Shown here piece after piece: positions 3,730-10,737 of a stretch of DNA of 22,968 nt (position 1 is its first letter; each line of letters starts with the position of its first letter). The notes under the pieces were generated by a model. It searched no databases, had not been told where the DNA came from, and saw nothing but the letters and a program-made list of their open reading frames with translations. Both the position numbers and the translations under genes were made by a program. Source of the stretch: a virus; the IMG/VR virus record IMGVR_UViG_3300030380_003668, positions 1 through 22,968 of that record; one strand, 5' to 3'.

Positions 3730-4020
3730 ATGAGTTCACAAGAAAAATATAATAATTTTGGTGATGTGGTAAAATTTCGCATCACCAATTTATTAAAAAA
3801 AGGTTATGATGAATATTATATTAGAGATACATTCGGCCTTTCATTAAAATTTACAAGAAATGTTTTATGGCCTAAAATTCAAAAAGTAAAAATTGTTTAT
3901 TTTGGAAGCAAACAAGAATCTTATTACGAAAATGAAATGGACTACGGTAAATTAGAACTTAATTATAGTTTTAGTGAATTAAATAACAATAAAATACAAG
4001 CTTATAATAATTATGAATAA
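3730..4020 (+). CDS. Hypothetical protein upstream of the ParB-like gene
   Basis: A 96-aa protein of no recognised family. Residues 10-50 (GDVVKFRITNLLKKGYDEYYIRD and TFGLSLKFTRNVLWPKI) could form a helix-turn-helix: a helix, a turn at GL, then a helix with FTRNVLWPKIQ. This suggests, weakly, DNA binding. The C-terminus is polar and Asn/Tyr-rich. Its last 8 bases (ATGAATAA, 4013-4020) contain the start of the ParB-like gene, so the two are translationally coupled, and it may be a regulator or fourth member of that cassette. A 50-base gap without a clear promoter precedes it. Confidence 0.6.
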   Translation: MSSQEKYNNFGDVVKFRITNLLKKGYDEYYIRDTFGLSLKFTRNVLWPKIQKVKIVYFGSKQESYYENEMDYGKLELNYSFSELNNNKIQAYNNYE

Positions 4021-5143
4021 AATCAAACAACTAATAAAAAAAAATTTAAATAATTTAGATTTTGACGAAAAAATAAATTTGATCAATGATTTAAGATTGT
4101 TTTTGCATCAAAACAGCCCTTTTAAAAACGAACCTGTTGATTTTGTTAGGTGGGTTAAATGTGAAGATGTAGTTTCTAATGATTACAATCCAAATAAGGT
4201 AGCTCCTCCAGAAATGGAACTTTTAGAAGTCTCAATAATAAATGATGGTTATACTCAACCAATTGTTACTTGGGATAACTACGAAAAAAATAAAATAGAA
4301 GTTATTGATGGTTTTCATAGAAATAGAGTTGGTAAAGAATCTAAAATTATAAATAAAAGAATAAATGGTTACTTACCTGTTGTAAATATAAGAAATGAAC
4401 AATCTTCAAAAAACGATAGAATAGCATCTACTATTAGGCACAATAGAGCAAGAGGAAAACACCAAGTTAATGCAATGAGTGAAATTGTTATTGAATTAAA
4501 AAATAGAAACTGGACAAATAAAAGAATATCAAAACAGTTAGGTATGGATGAAGAAGAAGTTTTAAGGTTATGTCAAGTTAGTGGATTAGAGCATTTATTC
4601 AATGATAAAGATTTTTCAAAAGCTTGGGAATCATCTGATTATGTAGAAAATAATTATGAAATATTAACTGATGATGTTAGTGATGTTATCGACTTATATA
4701 AAATACCATTAGAAGATGATAAAGAAAGAATTTTTCACACTTACGATAAATGGGAATGTCACAAAGCAGGCTTTTATAAAAGCAAATTAAATGATTTATC
4801 ACACGAAGAATGTGAAAATAAATTTATAGAAATAATGACTAATGAAAAATTATTTGATGAATCACTAAATAGAGTTATAAATGAATGGAAATATAGTTGT
4901 GAACATTATCTTACAAATAAAGCAATGAATAGAATTGCTTGGTTAGGTCAAGCTGCAGTTTGTATATTATCTGGTGTTCCTTCAAAATATTCTACTGCTT
5001 GGAGTAAGTTAAATAAAGAACAACAAAATAAAGCAAACTTAATAGCTAACAAATATTTAAACATTTGGTTAGAAAAAAATAAAATGCAAAAATTAGATTT
5101 AGAAGATGCATTAAATATTAACAGACAAATTGAATTATATTAA
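4013..5143 (+). CDS. ibrB: IbrB-like ParB-domain protein with C-terminal phage module
   Basis: A 376-aa protein. Residues 45-150 form a ParB/Srx-type domain with YNPN (58-61), GYTQPI (79-84), DGFHR (99-103) and RHNRARGKH (142-150), the pattern of IbrB-type proteins; a helix-turn-helix (about 160-192: MSEIVIELKNRNWTNKRISK, then MDEEEVLRL) follows. Residues 238-355 are a separate module with WECHKAGFY, EWKYSCEHYLTN and AMNRIAWLGQA, which I know from other phage proteins where it can occur alone. ParB-fold domains bind CTP or act as nucleases or kinases; which applies here is unclear. It is directly followed, 2 bases apart, by the IbrA-like gene, the partner found in enterobacterial ibrAB. The gene symbol reflects family resemblance, not proven function. 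Confidence 0.8.
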   Translation: MNKIKQLIKKNLNNLDFDEKINLINDLRLFLHQNSPFKNEPVDFVRWVKCEDVVSNDYNPNKVAPPEMELLEVSIINDGYTQPIVTWDNYEKNKIEVIDGFHRNRVGKESKIINKRINGYLPVVNIRNEQSSKNDRIASTIRHNRARGKHQVNAMSEIVIELKNRNWTNKRISKQLGMDEEEVLRLCQVSGLEHLFNDKDFSKAWESSDYVENNYEILTDDVSDVIDLYKIPLEDDKERIFHTYDKWECHKAGFYKSKLNDLSHEECENKFIEIMTNEKLFDESLNRVINEWKYSCEHYLTNKAMNRIAWLGQAAVCILSGVPSKYSTAWSKLNKEQQNKANLIANKYLNIWLEKNKMQKLDLEDALNINRQIELY

Positions 5144-5145
5144 TT

Positions 5146-6354
5146 ATGGCAACAAAATACTATTTAAATAAAAACGTGCTACAAGCATCTAGAGAAAGGA
5201 TATTTAAAGTTTTTGATTCTTTTGAAAAATATTATATAAGTTTTTCTGGAGGTAAAGATTCAACTGTTATGACTCATTTAGTTTTAGATGAAGCTATAAA
5301 AAGAAATAAAAAAGTTGGGCTTTTGATAATAGATTTGGAAGCTCAATATGAAAATACAATTCAACATATAGAAGAAATTATTGAAAAGTATAAAGACAAT
5401 ATAGATTTACATTGGTTTTGTGGTGAATTATTATTAAGAAACGCAGTAAGTGATTTTCAACCAAAATGGACTTGTTGGGATAATAATAATGAAAATATAT
5501 GGGTTAGAGAAAAACCAAATAAAGCAAGTGATTTATCACAATATGATTTTTATGTTCCTAAAATGGAATTTGAAGAGTTTATGGTTTTATTTGGTAAATG
5601 GTATGCTCAAGACAAATTAACTGCTGGATTTATAGGTATAAGATCCGATGAAAGTTTACATAGATATCGAGCTATTACATCTAATAAGAAAAATTTAACT
5701 TATAATAATTATAAATGGACTACAAAACTTAATAATAATTTATTTAATGTTTATCCAATTTATGATTGGAGAACTGAAGATATATGGATTTTTCACTCAA
5801 AATATAAAAATTTATGTCATAATAAAATTTATGATTTAATGACAATGGCAGGTGTTAAATTAAGTAATCAAAGGTTGTGTCAACCTTATGGAGATGACCA
5901 AAAAAAAGGATTATGGTTGTATCATATTTTAGAAAGCAATACTTGGTATAAATTATTAAATAGAGTGAGTGGAGTTAATAGTGGTTCATTATATATTAAT
6001 GAAAAGGGTAATATTAATGGTTACAATAATGTTACAAAACCAGATAATCATACTTGGGAAAGTTATTGTAATTATTTACTTAAATCATTACCATATAAGA
6101 TGCAAATACATTATAAACAAAAATTTAAAAAGTTTATAGTTGGATGGAAAAAAAGAGGCTATGCAAAAATACCAGACGAAGCTCCGCACGATTTAGAAGT
6201 GAAATGTTGGGCTCCATCTTGGAAAAGAATGGTTAGATGTATTTTAAGAAATGATTATTACTGCAAAGGATTAGGTCAAACACAGCCAAAATCAGAAGCT
6301 TATGAAAAATATAAATCAATAAAATATAAAAGAAAATTAGAATCTGAATTATGA
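5146..6354 (+). CDS. ibrA: IbrA-like PAPS-reductase-family protein (DUF3440 type)
   Basis: A 402-aa protein with the PP-loop SGGKDST (34-40), the ATP-pyrophosphatase signature of the PAPS reductase / DndC superfamily. Further family motifs are FIGIRSDESLHRYRAI (about 164-179), YPIYDWRTEDIW (about 203-214) and a long C-terminal region with RLCQPYGDDQKKGLW, as in IbrA/DUF3440 proteins. PP-loop enzymes adenylate a substrate; relatives act in sulfate reduction or, as DndC, in putting sulfur into the DNA backbone. I see no DndC-type pattern of cysteines that would prove sulfur chemistry. It sits between the IbrB-like gene and a nuclease gene that overlaps its stop by 4 bases. IbrA and IbrB in E. 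coli prophages are linked to activation of eib genes. Confidence 0.85.
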   Translation: MATKYYLNKNVLQASRERIFKVFDSFEKYYISFSGGKDSTVMTHLVLDEAIKRNKKVGLLIIDLEAQYENTIQHIEEIIEKYKDNIDLHWFCGELLLRNAVSDFQPKWTCWDNNNENIWVREKPNKASDLSQYDFYVPKMEFEEFMVLFGKWYAQDKLTAGFIGIRSDESLHRYRAITSNKKNLTYNNYKWTTKLNNNLFNVYPIYDWRTEDIWIFHSKYKNLCHNKIYDLMTMAGVKLSNQRLCQPYGDDQKKGLWLYHILESNTWYKLLNRVSGVNSGSLYINEKGNINGYNNVTKPDNHTWESYCNYLLKSLPYKMQIHYKQKFKKFIVGWKKRGYAKIPDEAPHDLEVKCWAPSWKRMVRCILRNDYYCKGLGQTQPKSEAYEKYKSIKYKRKLESEL

Positions 6355-6851
6355 AAATATATAACATCAATTTAGAAAATAAAAATAAAATTTGGAATTG
6401 GTTAAAATCAAATAATATAGCTCAAAGAGGAAAATTTGATGGAAGCAAAGAAAAACAACTTATTGGACTAATTGGCGAGTTTGAATTTTATTATATTTTA
6501 TTTGGTTCTTATCCTCCATTTAAAAATACATTTGACAAAGGAGTTGATATATTGTATAATAATAAATCTATTGATGTGAAAACAATGTCTAGGAATGTTA
6601 ATTGTCAAGATCACTATGTAAACAATTTTCTTGAATGTCAATTAAAATATAATTGTGATATTATTGTTTTCTTATCTATCAATATGAAAAAAAATACTTT
6701 TCAAATATGTGGTTATATACCAAAAAAAGAAATATCAGAAAAAGGTATTTTATATAAGAAAGGAGATATAAGAACAAGAGATGATAAAACTAAATTTATT
6801 TGTGAAGAAAATATGTATGAAATTAAAAATGTAGATTTATATAAATTTTAA
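6351..6851 (+). CDS. PD-(D/E)XK-type nuclease coupled to the IbrA-like gene
   Basis: A 166-aa protein whose first half shows a restriction-nuclease core: GLIGEFEFYYILFG (Glu 43 and Glu 45 on the first core helix), FDKGVDILYNN (Asp 66) and SIDVKTMSR (Asp 75, Lys 77), giving the D...D-x-K pattern. Relatives include phage endonucleases and type II restriction enzymes. The second half (CDIIVFLSINMKKNTFQICG, then IPKKEI) also follows the usual order of this fold, with a strand for substrate contacts. It overlaps the IbrA-like stop by ATGA, so the two are translated together. It may cut unmodified or host DNA while the ParB/PP-loop pair modifies or regulates; that link is inference. No specificity can be read. 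Confidence 0.7.
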   Translation: MKIYNINLENKNKIWNWLKSNNIAQRGKFDGSKEKQLIGLIGEFEFYYILFGSYPPFKNTFDKGVDILYNNKSIDVKTMSRNVNCQDHYVNNFLECQLKYNCDIIVFLSINMKKNTFQICGYIPKKEISEKGILYKKGDIRTRDDKTKFICEENMYEIKNVDLYKF

Positions 6852-6870
6852 AAACTATAAAAAACTAAAT

Positions 6871-7278
6871 ATGAAAAAATTACCATGGTTTAAATTTTTT
6901 CCTAACCAATGGCTAACAGGCACGATCTCTTTTATGGAATTAGATGAGCAGGGAGCTTTTTTAAAAGTTTGTTTATACTATTGGTCTAAAGAATGTAATA
7001 TTACTTTAGAACAAATTAAAACGTTAATACCAAAACAATGGCAAGCACTTATTGATGCTAATTTATTTAAGATTGAAAATGATAGTATTAAAATAAAATG
7101 GTTAGATGAGCAATACGAAGAAAGATTAAAAGAACATGAAAGAAATGTTGTCAATGGTCGTAAGGGGGGCTTAAGCACCGCTAAAGCATTAAGAAAAGAA
7201 AAGAAAAGAAAAGATAAATACGCAAACGACAATTTATTAAAAATAACACCTGAACTACGAAAATTACTTAATAAATGA
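6871..7278 (+). CDS. DUF1376-type replication initiator
   Basis: A 135-aa protein. Residues 4-90 (PWFKFFPNQWLTGTISFMEL, DEQGAFLKVCLYYW, then a Lys/Glu region ending in DEQYEERLKEH) match the winged-helix-like N-terminal domain of DUF1376 (YdaU) proteins, found at the replication loci of phages. The C-terminus is a low-complexity basic stretch: RKGGLSTAKALRKEKKRK. The DNA under that stretch carries the origin-like element at 7161-7220. The stop overlaps the ATG of the ATPase gene by ATGA, giving the lambda O/P arrangement of initiator then helicase or loader. It starts at ATG 6871 with an A-rich leader; a 19-base gap precedes it. Confidence 0.75.
   Translation: MKKLPWFKFFPNQWLTGTISFMELDEQGAFLKVCLYYWSKECNITLEQIKTLIPKQWQALIDANLFKIENDSIKIKWLDEQYEERLKEHERNVVNGRKGGLSTAKALRKEKKRKDKYANDNLLKITPELRKLLNK
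7161..7220 (+). repeat. Origin-like palindrome and AAAAG repeats inside the initiator gene
   Basis: Inside the DUF1376 gene, TAAGGGGGGCTTAAGC (7161-7176) contains the 8-base palindrome GCTTAAGC, followed by four tandem AAAAG units (about 7192-7212) on a purine-only strand. Bases 7185-7220 match 12751-12786 at 32 of 36 positions, and 7161-7176 matches the reverse complement of 12735-12750 at 14 of 16. This is a palindrome beside a purine-rich repeat, as in lambda ori within gene O. The origin role is inference; the repeats also serve the KEKKRK tail. Confidence 0.45.
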
Positions 7279-8120
7279 TATTAAAGGATAGTTCTACAAT
7301 ACCGTATTTAAAAGCATTTAAAGAAGGTAAAATAAAAAAAGGTATTGGTATAAATTGTGTTTTAGATGATTATTTCTTATATAAAAAAGGAAACTTTAAC
7401 ATGTTTTTAGGTCTAGACAATGTTGGCAAAACAAATTTTATATTATGGTATTTAACAGCATTAAGTAAACTGCATAAAAAAAAGTGGTGTATTTGGTCAG
7501 GTGAAAACAACCCAGGACAATTAAAAAGAGATATTATTCAAATGTGGACTGGTGAAAAGATAAAAGACTTGAACGAATATTTATTTTATCATGATGAAAT
7601 AAGTAAGTATTTTAAATTTGTAGATAATAAAAAGCTTTACAATCATAAAGAACTATTAAAGATATTTGAAGAAGAAGATTGTGACGGATGTTTAATTGAT
7701 CCATACACAGGAATTAATCACGATAGAAGAATCTCGCAGTTTGAAAGGAATTATCAAATATGTAATGATGTAAGGGAGTTTTGTAATAAAACAGGAAAAA
7801 CAATGTTTATTGCAATGCATCCACAAACAGAGGCAGCAAGGAGAGTTTTCCCGCCAGATCACGATTTGAACGGACATATACAACCACCAAGAAAAGCAGA
7901 CTGCGAGGGTGGGCAGGTATTTCCAAATAGAGTTGACAACTTTATTTGTTTACATAGATTGATCTCGCATGATAAACTTTGGATGATGACAGAGGTACAC
8001 ATTTATAAAATTAAAGATAAGGAAACTGGAGGAAAGCCAACAATGTTAAATGAACCTTTAAGGTTTGACTATAATAATGGTTTAGGCTTTACAATAGGAG
8101 GTGTAAACGTATTAAAATGA
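7275..8120 (+). CDS. RecA-fold ATPase (DnaB-like helicase or loader)
   Basis: A 281-aa protein with a Walker A motif G46-LDNVGKTN (46-54), a Walker B-like hydrophobic strand ending in Asp (DGCLIDPYTG, 137-146) and a third strand TMFIAMHPQ (about 176-184), as in RecA-fold ATPases such as the DnaB helicase core, Twinkle or RepA-type helicases. RVDNF (219-223) and the following VHIYKIKDKETGG resemble the late DnaB strands. It is short for a full DnaB (about 450 residues) and lacks an N-terminal primase-binding domain, so it may be a minimal replicative helicase or a loader. Overlap with the DUF1376 gene supports replication. A 'GLDNVGKT' P-loop rather than GxxxxGKT/S with a flexible glycine start is unusual but valid. 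Confidence 0.75.
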   Translation: MILKDSSTIPYLKAFKEGKIKKGIGINCVLDDYFLYKKGNFNMFLGLDNVGKTNFILWYLTALSKLHKKKWCIWSGENNPGQLKRDIIQMWTGEKIKDLNEYLFYHDEISKYFKFVDNKKLYNHKELLKIFEEEDCDGCLIDPYTGINHDRRISQFERNYQICNDVREFCNKTGKTMFIAMHPQTEAARRVFPPDHDLNGHIQPPRKADCEGGQVFPNRVDNFICLHRLISHDKLWMMTEVHIYKIKDKETGGKPTMLNEPLRFDYNNGLGFTIGGVNVLK

Positions 8121-8496: not shown

Positions 8497-8635
8497 TTTA
8501 AATAAACATAGACAAGTTAAAGACAGTTACTATAAAAATGAAAATATTATCAGTAATAGTATAACTTATTTGTGCGCAATATATCCAAATAATGCAGAAC
8601 TAGGAGCAGCAATAAGAAAACATTTCCAAAAATGA
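8480..8635 (+). CDS. Small hypothetical protein (51 aa)
   Basis: I start this gene at ATG 8480, giving 51 residues and a 17-base overlap with the membrane peptide. The frame continues back to ATG 8435, but those 15 residues only shadow the membrane peptide. The product is basic with a Tyr/Asn-rich middle and ends in IYPNNAELGAAIRKHFQK. No family is recognised. Its stop overlaps the methyltransferase-like gene by ATGA. Confidence 0.5.
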   Translation: MKNKINLNKHRQVKDSYYKNENIISNSITYLCAIYPNNAELGAAIRKHFQK

Positions 8636-9285
8636 AGATACTTAATTTATATGCTTGTTTGGGTGGTAATCGTTACAAATGGGATGAGGTTACAGACATA
8701 CAAGTTACTGCGGTTGAGTTAGACCCTGAAGCTGCAAGATTATATCAAGATCGTTTTCTAAATGATACTGTCATTGTAACTGATGCGCATCAATATTTGT
8801 TAGGCCACTATAAAGAGTTTGACTTTATATGGAGTTCGCCGCCTTGCCCGACACATAGTAGAGCTAGGTATTGGGGGATAGGTGCTAATGGGAAAAAACC
8901 AATATATCCAAATATGAGTTTGTATCAAGAAATTTTATTTTTACAACATCATTTTAAAGGCAAGTATGTAGTTGAAAATGTAATACCATATTACGAACCA
9001 TTAATTCCTGCAAAGAAAAGAGGTCGGCACTTGTATTGGACAAACTTCAATTTACCAAATATTTTAAGTAAAAGAAAAGTAAAAATTAGCGGAGGTAAAA
9101 ATGAAGTAAAAAACCTATGTGCATTCCACGATTACGATTTTTTTAAGTACAAAGGAAGTCAACCAACTAATAAAATTGCAAGAAACCTAGTTGACTATGA
9201 AGCGGGTAAAACAATACTTGAAACTGTATTAGGAATAACTAGAAAAGAAAATGTCAAACAACAAACTATATTTGATGAATGCTAA
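8632..9285 (+). CDS. C5-cytosine methyltransferase-like protein
   Basis: A 217-aa protein with the order of C5-type DNA methyltransferase motifs: motif I LNLYACLGGN (4-13) for S-adenosylmethionine, AVELDPEAARLY (27-38), motif IV SSPPCPTHS (68-76) with the catalytic Cys 72, motif VI ENV (115-117) and GRHLYWTNF (131-139). A closing segment KIARNLVDYEAG resembles motif X. The usual PPCQ is PPCP here, and 217 residues is short of the 300-400 of a complete enzyme with a large recognition domain. It may methylate cytosines in phage DNA, protecting it from host restriction, or may be a domain of minimal specificity. It overlaps the nuclease gene by 35 bases. Confidence 0.75.
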   Translation: MKILNLYACLGGNRYKWDEVTDIQVTAVELDPEAARLYQDRFLNDTVIVTDAHQYLLGHYKEFDFIWSSPPCPTHSRARYWGIGANGKKPIYPNMSLYQEILFLQHHFKGKYVVENVIPYYEPLIPAKKRGRHLYWTNFNLPNILSKRKVKISGGKNEVKNLCAFHDYDFFKYKGSQPTNKIARNLVDYEAGKTILETVLGITRKENVKQQTIFDEC

Positions 9286-9625
9286 TAAAAAAGGGAAAAG
9301 ATTTGAATTAAAAATTGCAAAAGATTTAGCAAAGAAGTTTGATACTAATATTAGAAGAACACCAAACAGTGGAGGACTTTCTATAAAAGGTGATATACTA
9401 ACAACATCAGGAATTTTAAGTGAATATAGTTGGGAGTGTAAGAACCAAGAAAAGCTTAACATCTGGAAAGCATTACATCAAAGCGAAGGTGATGCAGCAG
9501 GTACGAGAAAAACACCAGTTGTAGTATTTACAAAGAATTTTGAAAATGATTATGCAGCTTTAAGGTATGAAGATTTTGTTAATATACTATTAGAACTTAA
9601 CGAATTAAGGAATGAAAGTGCTTGA
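9251..9625 (+). CDS. Holliday-junction-resolvase-like PD-(D/E)XK nuclease
   Basis: A 124-aa protein with GKRFELKIAKDL (Glu 19 on the first helix), RRTPNSGGLSIKGDI (Asp 48), WECKNQEK (Glu 62, Lys 64), the core of the small resolvase/VRR-like nucleases used by phages to process branched DNA. The length fits. Start: ATG 9251 overlaps the methyltransferase-like gene by 35 bases; a second in-frame ATG at 9275 (residue 9, before the conserved helix) gives an 11-base overlap and may be the true start. Lying between two methyltransferase-like genes, it could be a resolvase or the cutting part of a restriction-modification pair; the fold and family favour resolvase. Confidence 0.75.
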   Translation: MSNNKLYLMNANKKGKRFELKIAKDLAKKFDTNIRRTPNSGGLSIKGDILTTSGILSEYSWECKNQEKLNIWKALHQSEGDAAGTRKTPVVVFTKNFENDYAALRYEDFVNILLELNELRNESA

Positions 9626-10244
9626 ACTTTTTGCAGGATCTCGAAGCATAGGAAAAGAAGCAGAAAAACAAGGTTTTGATGTTTTTAGCGTTGATATAAA
9701 TAATTTTAAAAACATTAATTTAGTTATTGATATTCTTGATTTAGAAAAAAAAATGATTCCATTTAAGCCAGATATTATATGGGCTTCTCCTCCTTGCACC
9801 TATTTTAGTGTAGCATCTATAGGACATCATTGGAATGAAGACCACACACCAAAAACTAAAGAAGCTGAATTAGGAATAAAAATATTAAACAAAACATTAT
9901 CTATTTTTAAATGGTTTCCTAAAGCAAAATTTTATATGGAAAATCCAGTTGGAAAAATGAGAAGAAAAGTAAAAGGAATAGATAGAACTACTATAACCTA
10001 TTGTAGTTATGGAGACAAAAGAATGAAGCCAACAGATATATGGAGCAACAATATTTATGATATATTTAATATTAATGGTTGGAAGCCAAGACCTATTTGT
10101 TATGCTGGTAATAAACATTGTCATCACGAAGAAGCTCCAAGAGGTTCAAAAACAGGAACACAAGGATTGAAAGATAATTACGAAAGAAGTAAAATACCAA
10201 ATCAGTTATGTAAAGAAATACTTTTAGCAAGTGGAAACAAATGA
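9612..10244 (+). CDS. Second cytosine-methyltransferase-like protein
   Basis: A 210-aa protein. VLELFAGSRSIGKEAEKQG (3-21) is a clear motif I for S-adenosylmethionine, SVDIN (26-30) motif II, IIWASPPCTYFS (55-66) motif IV with Cys 62, and MENPVG (109-114) motif VI, with Pro in place of the Val of ENV. The C-terminus has MKPTDIWSN and RSKIPNQLCKEIL, typical of a phage family of short methyltransferases, so the protein is probably complete for its family. It differs from the gene at 8632 in all variable parts, so the two are not a recent duplication. It overlaps the resolvase-like gene by 14 bases and the sigma-like gene by 14. Confidence 0.75.
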   Translation: MKVLELFAGSRSIGKEAEKQGFDVFSVDINNFKNINLVIDILDLEKKMIPFKPDIIWASPPCTYFSVASIGHHWNEDHTPKTKEAELGIKILNKTLSIFKWFPKAKFYMENPVGKMRRKVKGIDRTTITYCSYGDKRMKPTDIWSNNIYDIFNINGWKPRPICYAGNKHCHHEEAPRGSKTGTQGLKDNYERSKIPNQLCKEILLASGNK

Positions 10245-10737
10245 TGTTTTAAACATATTACATAAACATCAAGAAAAATGGTTGCAAATTGCAAAAAATT
10301 TATTATATAAAGAGGATGATCAATTAATTAAAGATATAATACAAGAAATGTATTTAAGTATAGCAGAACAATTACATAATAAAAAATTGAAAGCTGATGA
10401 GGTAATTATTAATAATAAACCGCATTTTGGTATAATAAAAAAAACTATTCTACAAATAATACAAATAGAAGCAAAACGTAAAAACAAATATAATAAAAAT
10501 GAAAATTTAGAAATTTTAAATGTAGCTAGCAACGAAAATTCAAAATACCTAGAAGAAGACATTAATAATCTAATAAACAATTTTTATTGGTTTGATAAAA
10601 AGCTGTTAAAACTATATACTAAAAAATTTAATAGTGTTAGAAGTTTAGCAAAAGAAACAAAGCTAGGTCATGTTACAGTATTTGAAGTAATTAATAAATG
10701 TAAAAAAAAAATAAAAAAACGTTTATATGAAAAGTAA
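10231..10737 (+). CDS. Sigma-factor-like protein
   Basis: A 168-aa helical protein laid out like a small (ECF-type) sigma factor. Residues 10-50 (HKHQEKWLQIAKNLL then LIKDIIQEMYLSIAEQL) resemble region 2, where WLxIAKxL and DDxIQEMYL recall the core-polymerase-binding helices. Residues 120-165 (FDKKLLKLYTKKFNSVRSLA then TKLGHVTVFEVINKCKKKIK) form a helix-turn-helix like region 4. A polar linker lies between. It could direct host polymerase to the repeated promoter-like elements at 12812 and 22431. Similar proteins occur in many marine phages. Confidence is moderate because the match rests on fold pattern; no direct test is possible here. Confidence 0.6.
   Translation: METNDVLNILHKHQEKWLQIAKNLLYKEDDQLIKDIIQEMYLSIAEQLHNKKLKADEVIINNKPHFGIIKKTILQIIQIEAKRKNKYNKNENLEILNVASNENSKYLEEDINNLINNFYWFDKKLLKLYTKKFNSVRSLAKETKLGHVTVFEVINKCKKKIKKRLYEK

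Follow-up and report, generated by a model that had tools for sequence, protein, structure and literature searches.

Between a 96-residue gene and the replication genes of a group of phages, which probably infect Flavobacteria-like bacteria of marine and fresh waters, there is a hypervariable cassette slot with gene-precise borders. Depending on the phage, it holds enzymes of DNA modification, a small gene of nuclease type, the two together, or nothing that can be recognised. We give a probability of roughly 60% to the reading that the gene run analysed here is one occupant of this slot, in which a ParB–IbrA pair would be the modification part and a PD-(D/E)XK nuclease a separately exchanged cutter. 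No earlier description of such a slot was found in the literature searched, whose coverage was partial; IbrA/IbrB pairs are already known. Such pairs are widespread among phages, prophages included, and the literature found gives no biochemical role for them. Their placement among recognisable DNA-modification genes leads to a specific and cheaply testable prediction of a DNA mark.

The window, that is, the whole stretch of DNA analysed, corresponds to positions 1–22,968 of the linear IMG/VR record IMGVR_UViG_3300030380_003668 (22,968 bases). The original prediction described four adjacent open reading frames on its + strand, and a check of the sequence and its reading frames reproduced all their coordinates, frames and joints. 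The 96-residue gene (3730..4020), a backbone gene that by synteny forms the left flank of the slot and lies outside the cassette, overlaps by 8 bases the first cassette gene, which encodes a ParB/IbrB-like protein of 376 residues (4013..5143; phrog_2159). This gene ends at 5143, 2 bases before the start at 5146 of a gene for an IbrA-like PP-loop protein of 402 residues with PAPS_reduct and DUF3440 domains (5146..6354; Pfam and PHROG), whose stop shares the ATGA at 6351–6354 with the start of the nuclease gene (6351..6851; 166 residues, unnamed family, assigned to PD-(D/E)XK by its core and predicted fold). On the same strand follow the right flank of the slot, a DUF1376-like replication gene (6871..7278; phrog_29280, E = 5e-18), and the backbone anchor, a RecA-like/replicative ATPase gene (7275..8120). 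A Flavobacteriia-type host is likely, since the window's terminase is closest to those of the Nonlabens phages P12024L/S (51%) and its RecA-like protein to those of Cellulophaga and Maribacter phages; the matches of the latter in Cellulophaga phages, at about 32%, are annotated there as DNA primase/polymerase.

The tight joints had suggested that the pair and the nuclease may act as one coupled modification or conflict system, in which case relatives too should have the nuclease beside the pair; this linkage fails. Among the 80 nearest viral loci listed, the ParB gene lies directly 5' of the IbrA gene in 79 (the 80th is truncated where its contig ends), and this nuclease comes next in just one, the phage of the window itself (L003/L004, a single contig). 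The closest relatives, L087 and L002, have the nuclease gene after the 96-residue gene and no pair; the DNA of L087 matches the window to 4017 and again from 6347, and is thus without exactly the pair. Conversely, L006, L007 and L009 match the window through the pair to 6355–6364 and again from 6836–6870, so that the nuclease gene alone has been replaced by another gene. Across 52 loci the gene 3' of IbrA belongs to a mixture of replication and recombination genes, with no fixed partner directly after IbrA, and the pair was seen beside four nuclease-like families (that of the window, s2, s18 and s6), beside genes of other kinds, or alone. We therefore reject a conserved three-gene system: in close relatives the nuclease can occur where the pair is missing, and the pair can be followed by a different nuclease or by no nuclease at all. 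The 96-residue gene was rejected as a fourth member, being a backbone flank whether the slot is full or empty. What survives is the broader idea of a phage-borne modification or conflict function, and not the coupling of the trio; it is supported by the slot, which recurrently carries DNA-modification genes and PD-(D/E)XK-like nucleases, and by other PP-loop genes that recur 5' of this nuclease in further phage lineages.

Because the replacements in L087, L006, L007 and L009 are gene-precise, we analysed the slot across the phage family fetched by the RecA-like protein (at least 80 relatives). The loci of this family, counted as the matches listed, are metagenomic contigs, many of them short, with mechanical gene calls, partial dereplication and arbitrary lineage thresholds. 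Their common gene order is RecE-like, SSB-like, the 96-residue gene, the slot, DUF1376-like and RecA-like. The 96-residue gene, for which there is no family match in Pfam or PHROGs, precedes the slot in 75 of the 89 loci of the family, the remainder being mostly incomplete contigs, and a DUF1376-like gene stands 3' of it in most. Among 52 loci with both borders present and a RecA-like identity of at least 89%, we counted 21 different slot contents. The 96-residue gene ends in the left border, GC[AG]TATTATG, in 57 of 75 loci, whereas the whole 750 kb contains this motif only 59 times; it usually embeds the ATG of the slot gene; the window's own left border is diverged. The right border, which is the start of the DUF1376-like gene, is a recurrent TTATGAAAGAA-like sequence (58 of 75 loci). 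In phages with nearly identical flanking replication genes, the slot thus offers a natural catalogue of modification enzymes and of families of small nucleases, several of them without a Pfam name.

The recognisable contents cover several modification chemistries. By Pfam, they include an N6_N4_Mtase (4e-28), Tet_JBP (7e-26), TET-associated glycosyltransferases (TAGT; 2.6e-39 and 2.3e-31), a thymidylate synthase-like protein (1.8e-61) that is accompanied by MazG (1.8e-6), and also Mom (1.6e-28), an ABC-ATPase/GNAT protein and an FkbM methyltransferase. The N terminus of the slot methylases (family s3) is ParB-like. ParB-CTPase folds fused to DNA methylases have been reported to be frequent in phages (PMC12704722). 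The TET/JBP–TAGT, Mom and thymidylate synthase-like hypermodification genes share with the ParB–IbrA pair the same slot in sister phages, but are enzymes unrelated to it, the evidence that joins them being one of position.

Modification genes in the slot are often followed by one of about 12–16 small nuclease-like families, and small genes of roughly 110–190 residues occur beside or instead of modification genes. A strict PD-(D/E)XK-type motif is present in 12 of 22 small slot families compared to 7 of 44 families taken as controls from these loci (Fisher p = 0.003; 16% for shuffled sequences). One of the small families, s18, shows a profile relationship with the nuclease of the window (hhalign P = 2.8e-5) and another matches UPF0102 (E = 3.4e-4), while s33, s36, s40 and s41 are called nucleases from motifs read by eye. 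The 72 complete slots divide into 14 with both kinds of gene, 20 with a nuclease only, 12 with a modification gene only and 26, about a third, with neither; the linkage between nuclease and modification is therefore loose, and no strong statistical coupling was found across these slots. A further small family, s4 (158–161 residues, no Pfam match), has no PD-(D/E)XK motif and accompanies Mom, ABC–GNAT or FkbM/TAGT genes (L336, L366, L377, L378, L384, L356, L358 and L359); it may be a different kind of slot partner.

That the window's pair is IbrB/IbrA-like, as originally proposed, is borne out by its adjacency and by its PHROG and Pfam matches. The ParB-like protein matches phrog_2159 (E = 5e-67), and its N-terminal-like domain (residues 46–110; 4148..4342, + strand) matches Pfam ParB_N at 18.8 bits, under the cut-off of 26.3. 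The PP-loop protein matches phrog_2302 (E = 5e-83), DUF3440 (1.6e-31) and PAPS_reduct (2.8e-14). Its PP-loop, SGGKDS (residues 34–39; 5245..5262, + strand), is invariant in 49 relatives. Cys245 and Cys373 are likewise invariant, and Cys92 and Cys110 are present in 64 of 65 sequences. Foldseek matches PAPS reductases and ATP sulfurylase (E from 2.6e-6 to 1e-5), and a single-sequence search returned no solved IbrA relative. The PP-loop, the PAPS-reductase-like fold and the conserved cysteines are consistent with an enzyme that transfers sulfur, or some other group, after activation by ATP.

In the Dnd, Ssp and type-4 BREX systems, phosphorothioates are the product of PAPS-reductase-type proteins (PMC12839542). 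The window's IbrA resembles DndC/SspD in having a PP-loop and being PAPS-reductase-like, with a distant similarity (TIGR03183, E = 2.5e-7), but differs in carrying DUF3440 and in scoring 29.9 bits against a cut-off of 290.4, on which we reject it as a DndC member. Against the PADLOC DndC it scores 35.3 bits, and no further match to a Dnd or Ssp component came from a PADLOC scan of four proteins of the window. Compared with the IbrA/IbrB pairs of prophages, the window has the same two families, adjacent as they are in phages of many hosts, but here they precede a PD-(D/E)XK nuclease within a modification/nuclease slot.

Judging by position, we take the ParB–IbrA pair to be most probably a module for DNA modification, with the nuclease as an independently exchanged partner. 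The activities that follow are predictions: the IbrA PP-loop enzyme would activate its target with ATP and probably transfer sulfur, or another group; the ParB-like protein, going by what is known of its family, would load or aim IbrA on DNA; the resulting modification would shield the phage from the nucleases of its host and of its rivals; and the nuclease would cut DNA that lacks the phage's own state, be it host DNA or that of rival phages with other marks. A more far-reaching version of this arrangement of shield and sword, in which the slot swaps whole modification chemistries (methylation, oxidation by TET/JBP with added sugar, replacement at the nucleotide level, the Mom type and a PP-loop/ParB type) together with equally diverse small PD-(D/E)XK nucleases, and ParB–IbrA writes an undescribed and perhaps sulfur-based mark, is tentative, and we rate it at somewhat short of an even chance.

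The nuclease has the catalytic core proposed for it. D66, the predicted first catalytic acid (6546..6548, + strand), and D75 and K77, the second acid and the lysine of the D75-V76-K77 segment (6573..6581, + strand), are invariant in 48 of 48 distinct relatives and throughout a wider alignment of 57 rows. No family match was found in PHROGs, NCBIfam or PADLOC, or above the Pfam cut-off, and a sequence search of the PDB gave nothing useful. The AlphaFold model is confident (mean pLDDT 93.1) and matches phage ‘restriction endonuclease’ proteins strongly among the viral models of BFVD (E = 2.3e-11); its best Foldseek matches in the PDB are the restriction endonucleases DpnI, NhoI and Eco15I, all weak (E = 0.015–0.3, TM about 0.4). 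We conclude that the model adopts a restriction-endonuclease-like fold whose nearest solved folds are these enzymes, from which the window's nuclease differs in being smaller and of a single domain. As all three were solved with methylated DNA targets, the nuclease could instead be modification-dependent (type IV-like) and aimed at the modified DNA of rival phages, with ParB–IbrA as an unrelated shield, and lone copies of such a nuclease would be harmless to an unmodified phage. The weakness of the matches and the lack of a reader domain beyond the 166-residue core speak against this alternative, to which we assign about one chance in four.

Relatives of the nuclease are found in 465 stretches of viral contigs and also in Flavobacteriaceae chromosomes, at about 2–3% of the sampled genomes of this family. 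Where it is a chromosomal gene in some Flavobacteriaceae (L135–L145), 9 of 11 loci share a neighbourhood with an AddB-like large protein and a glycine C-acetyltransferase-like gene, both assigned by eye, and no PP-loop neighbour was seen among the labelled genes. When the nuclease alone was used to fetch loci (131 loci, which form 28 lineages at 70% identity), PP-loop genes from three subfamilies were found one or two positions upstream of the nuclease in 7 of 28 lineages (four at offset −1, three at −2), and elsewhere within eight genes they occur only at −4 and +3, in one lineage each. The pattern was first noticed in three lineages, and 80 further loci added four new ones; within each lineage it is facultative. 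On the evidence of these sequences, it is a second, independent association between PP-loop genes and the nuclease. The non-IbrA PP-loop genes just upstream of nuclease homologues are of LGMGxQST/CVFCP and SLSGGKTSSY/CVGCFH types (L093, L121, L264, L281, L310, L273, L232 and L234). L002, which lacks ParB–IbrA, has another PP-loop gene (3959–4804 of that locus) three genes downstream of its nuclease. Directly downstream of the related PP-loop genes of phrog_424 type lie Mom in 3 of 46 cases and a C5 methylase in 2 of 46.

This recurrence of PP-loop genes just upstream would also suit a classical restriction–modification unit of three cognate genes, with a nuclease that cuts DNA lacking the modification and a ParB–IbrA mark that protects the phage's own DNA. 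So would the order of modification and then nuclease with tight joints, and the presence of a nuclease-like gene in every slot with an N6/N4 methylase (8 of 8, some assigned by eye), a combination by which sister phages resemble type II systems in the very same slot. The window departs from these in having no methylase in its cassette and a nuclease that also occurs without the pair; two C5-methylase-like genes lie outside the cassette (8632–9285 and 9612–10244). L002 and L087 have the nuclease on its own, its partners differ in other lineages, and in flavobacterial chromosomes it lacks a PP-loop neighbour; the pair, for its part, is accompanied by nuclease-like genes of at least three other kinds or by none. 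We thus regard a strict cognate unit as unlikely, and as less likely than shield and sword because the nuclease is found alone and in host chromosomes as well. The weakest alternative, that ParB–IbrA is a pair of transcription co-activators and the nuclease an ordinary enzyme of recombination or host-DNA degradation that is its neighbour by chance, has for it the label ‘co-activators of prophage gene expression’ (PMC4490671; PMC5736727), the sole role named for IbrA/IbrB in the literature found, and the RecE-like and resolvase-like genes of the same region (Pfam, PHROGs), but is improbable given that the PP-loop, cysteines and PAPS-reductase fold point to an enzyme and that the other recognisable slot occupants are mainly DNA-modification genes.

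Further downstream, the window carries the two short C5-methylase-like genes mentioned above. In 18 loci of the family a relative of the first (8632–9285) comes immediately 3' of the RecA-like gene, and in others none is present there, which suggests a second variable modification site. Beyond them lies a small gene (10231–10737) that by eye is sigma-factor-like, and genes similar to it (c1) stand directly 5' of the nuclease in several other phage lineages.
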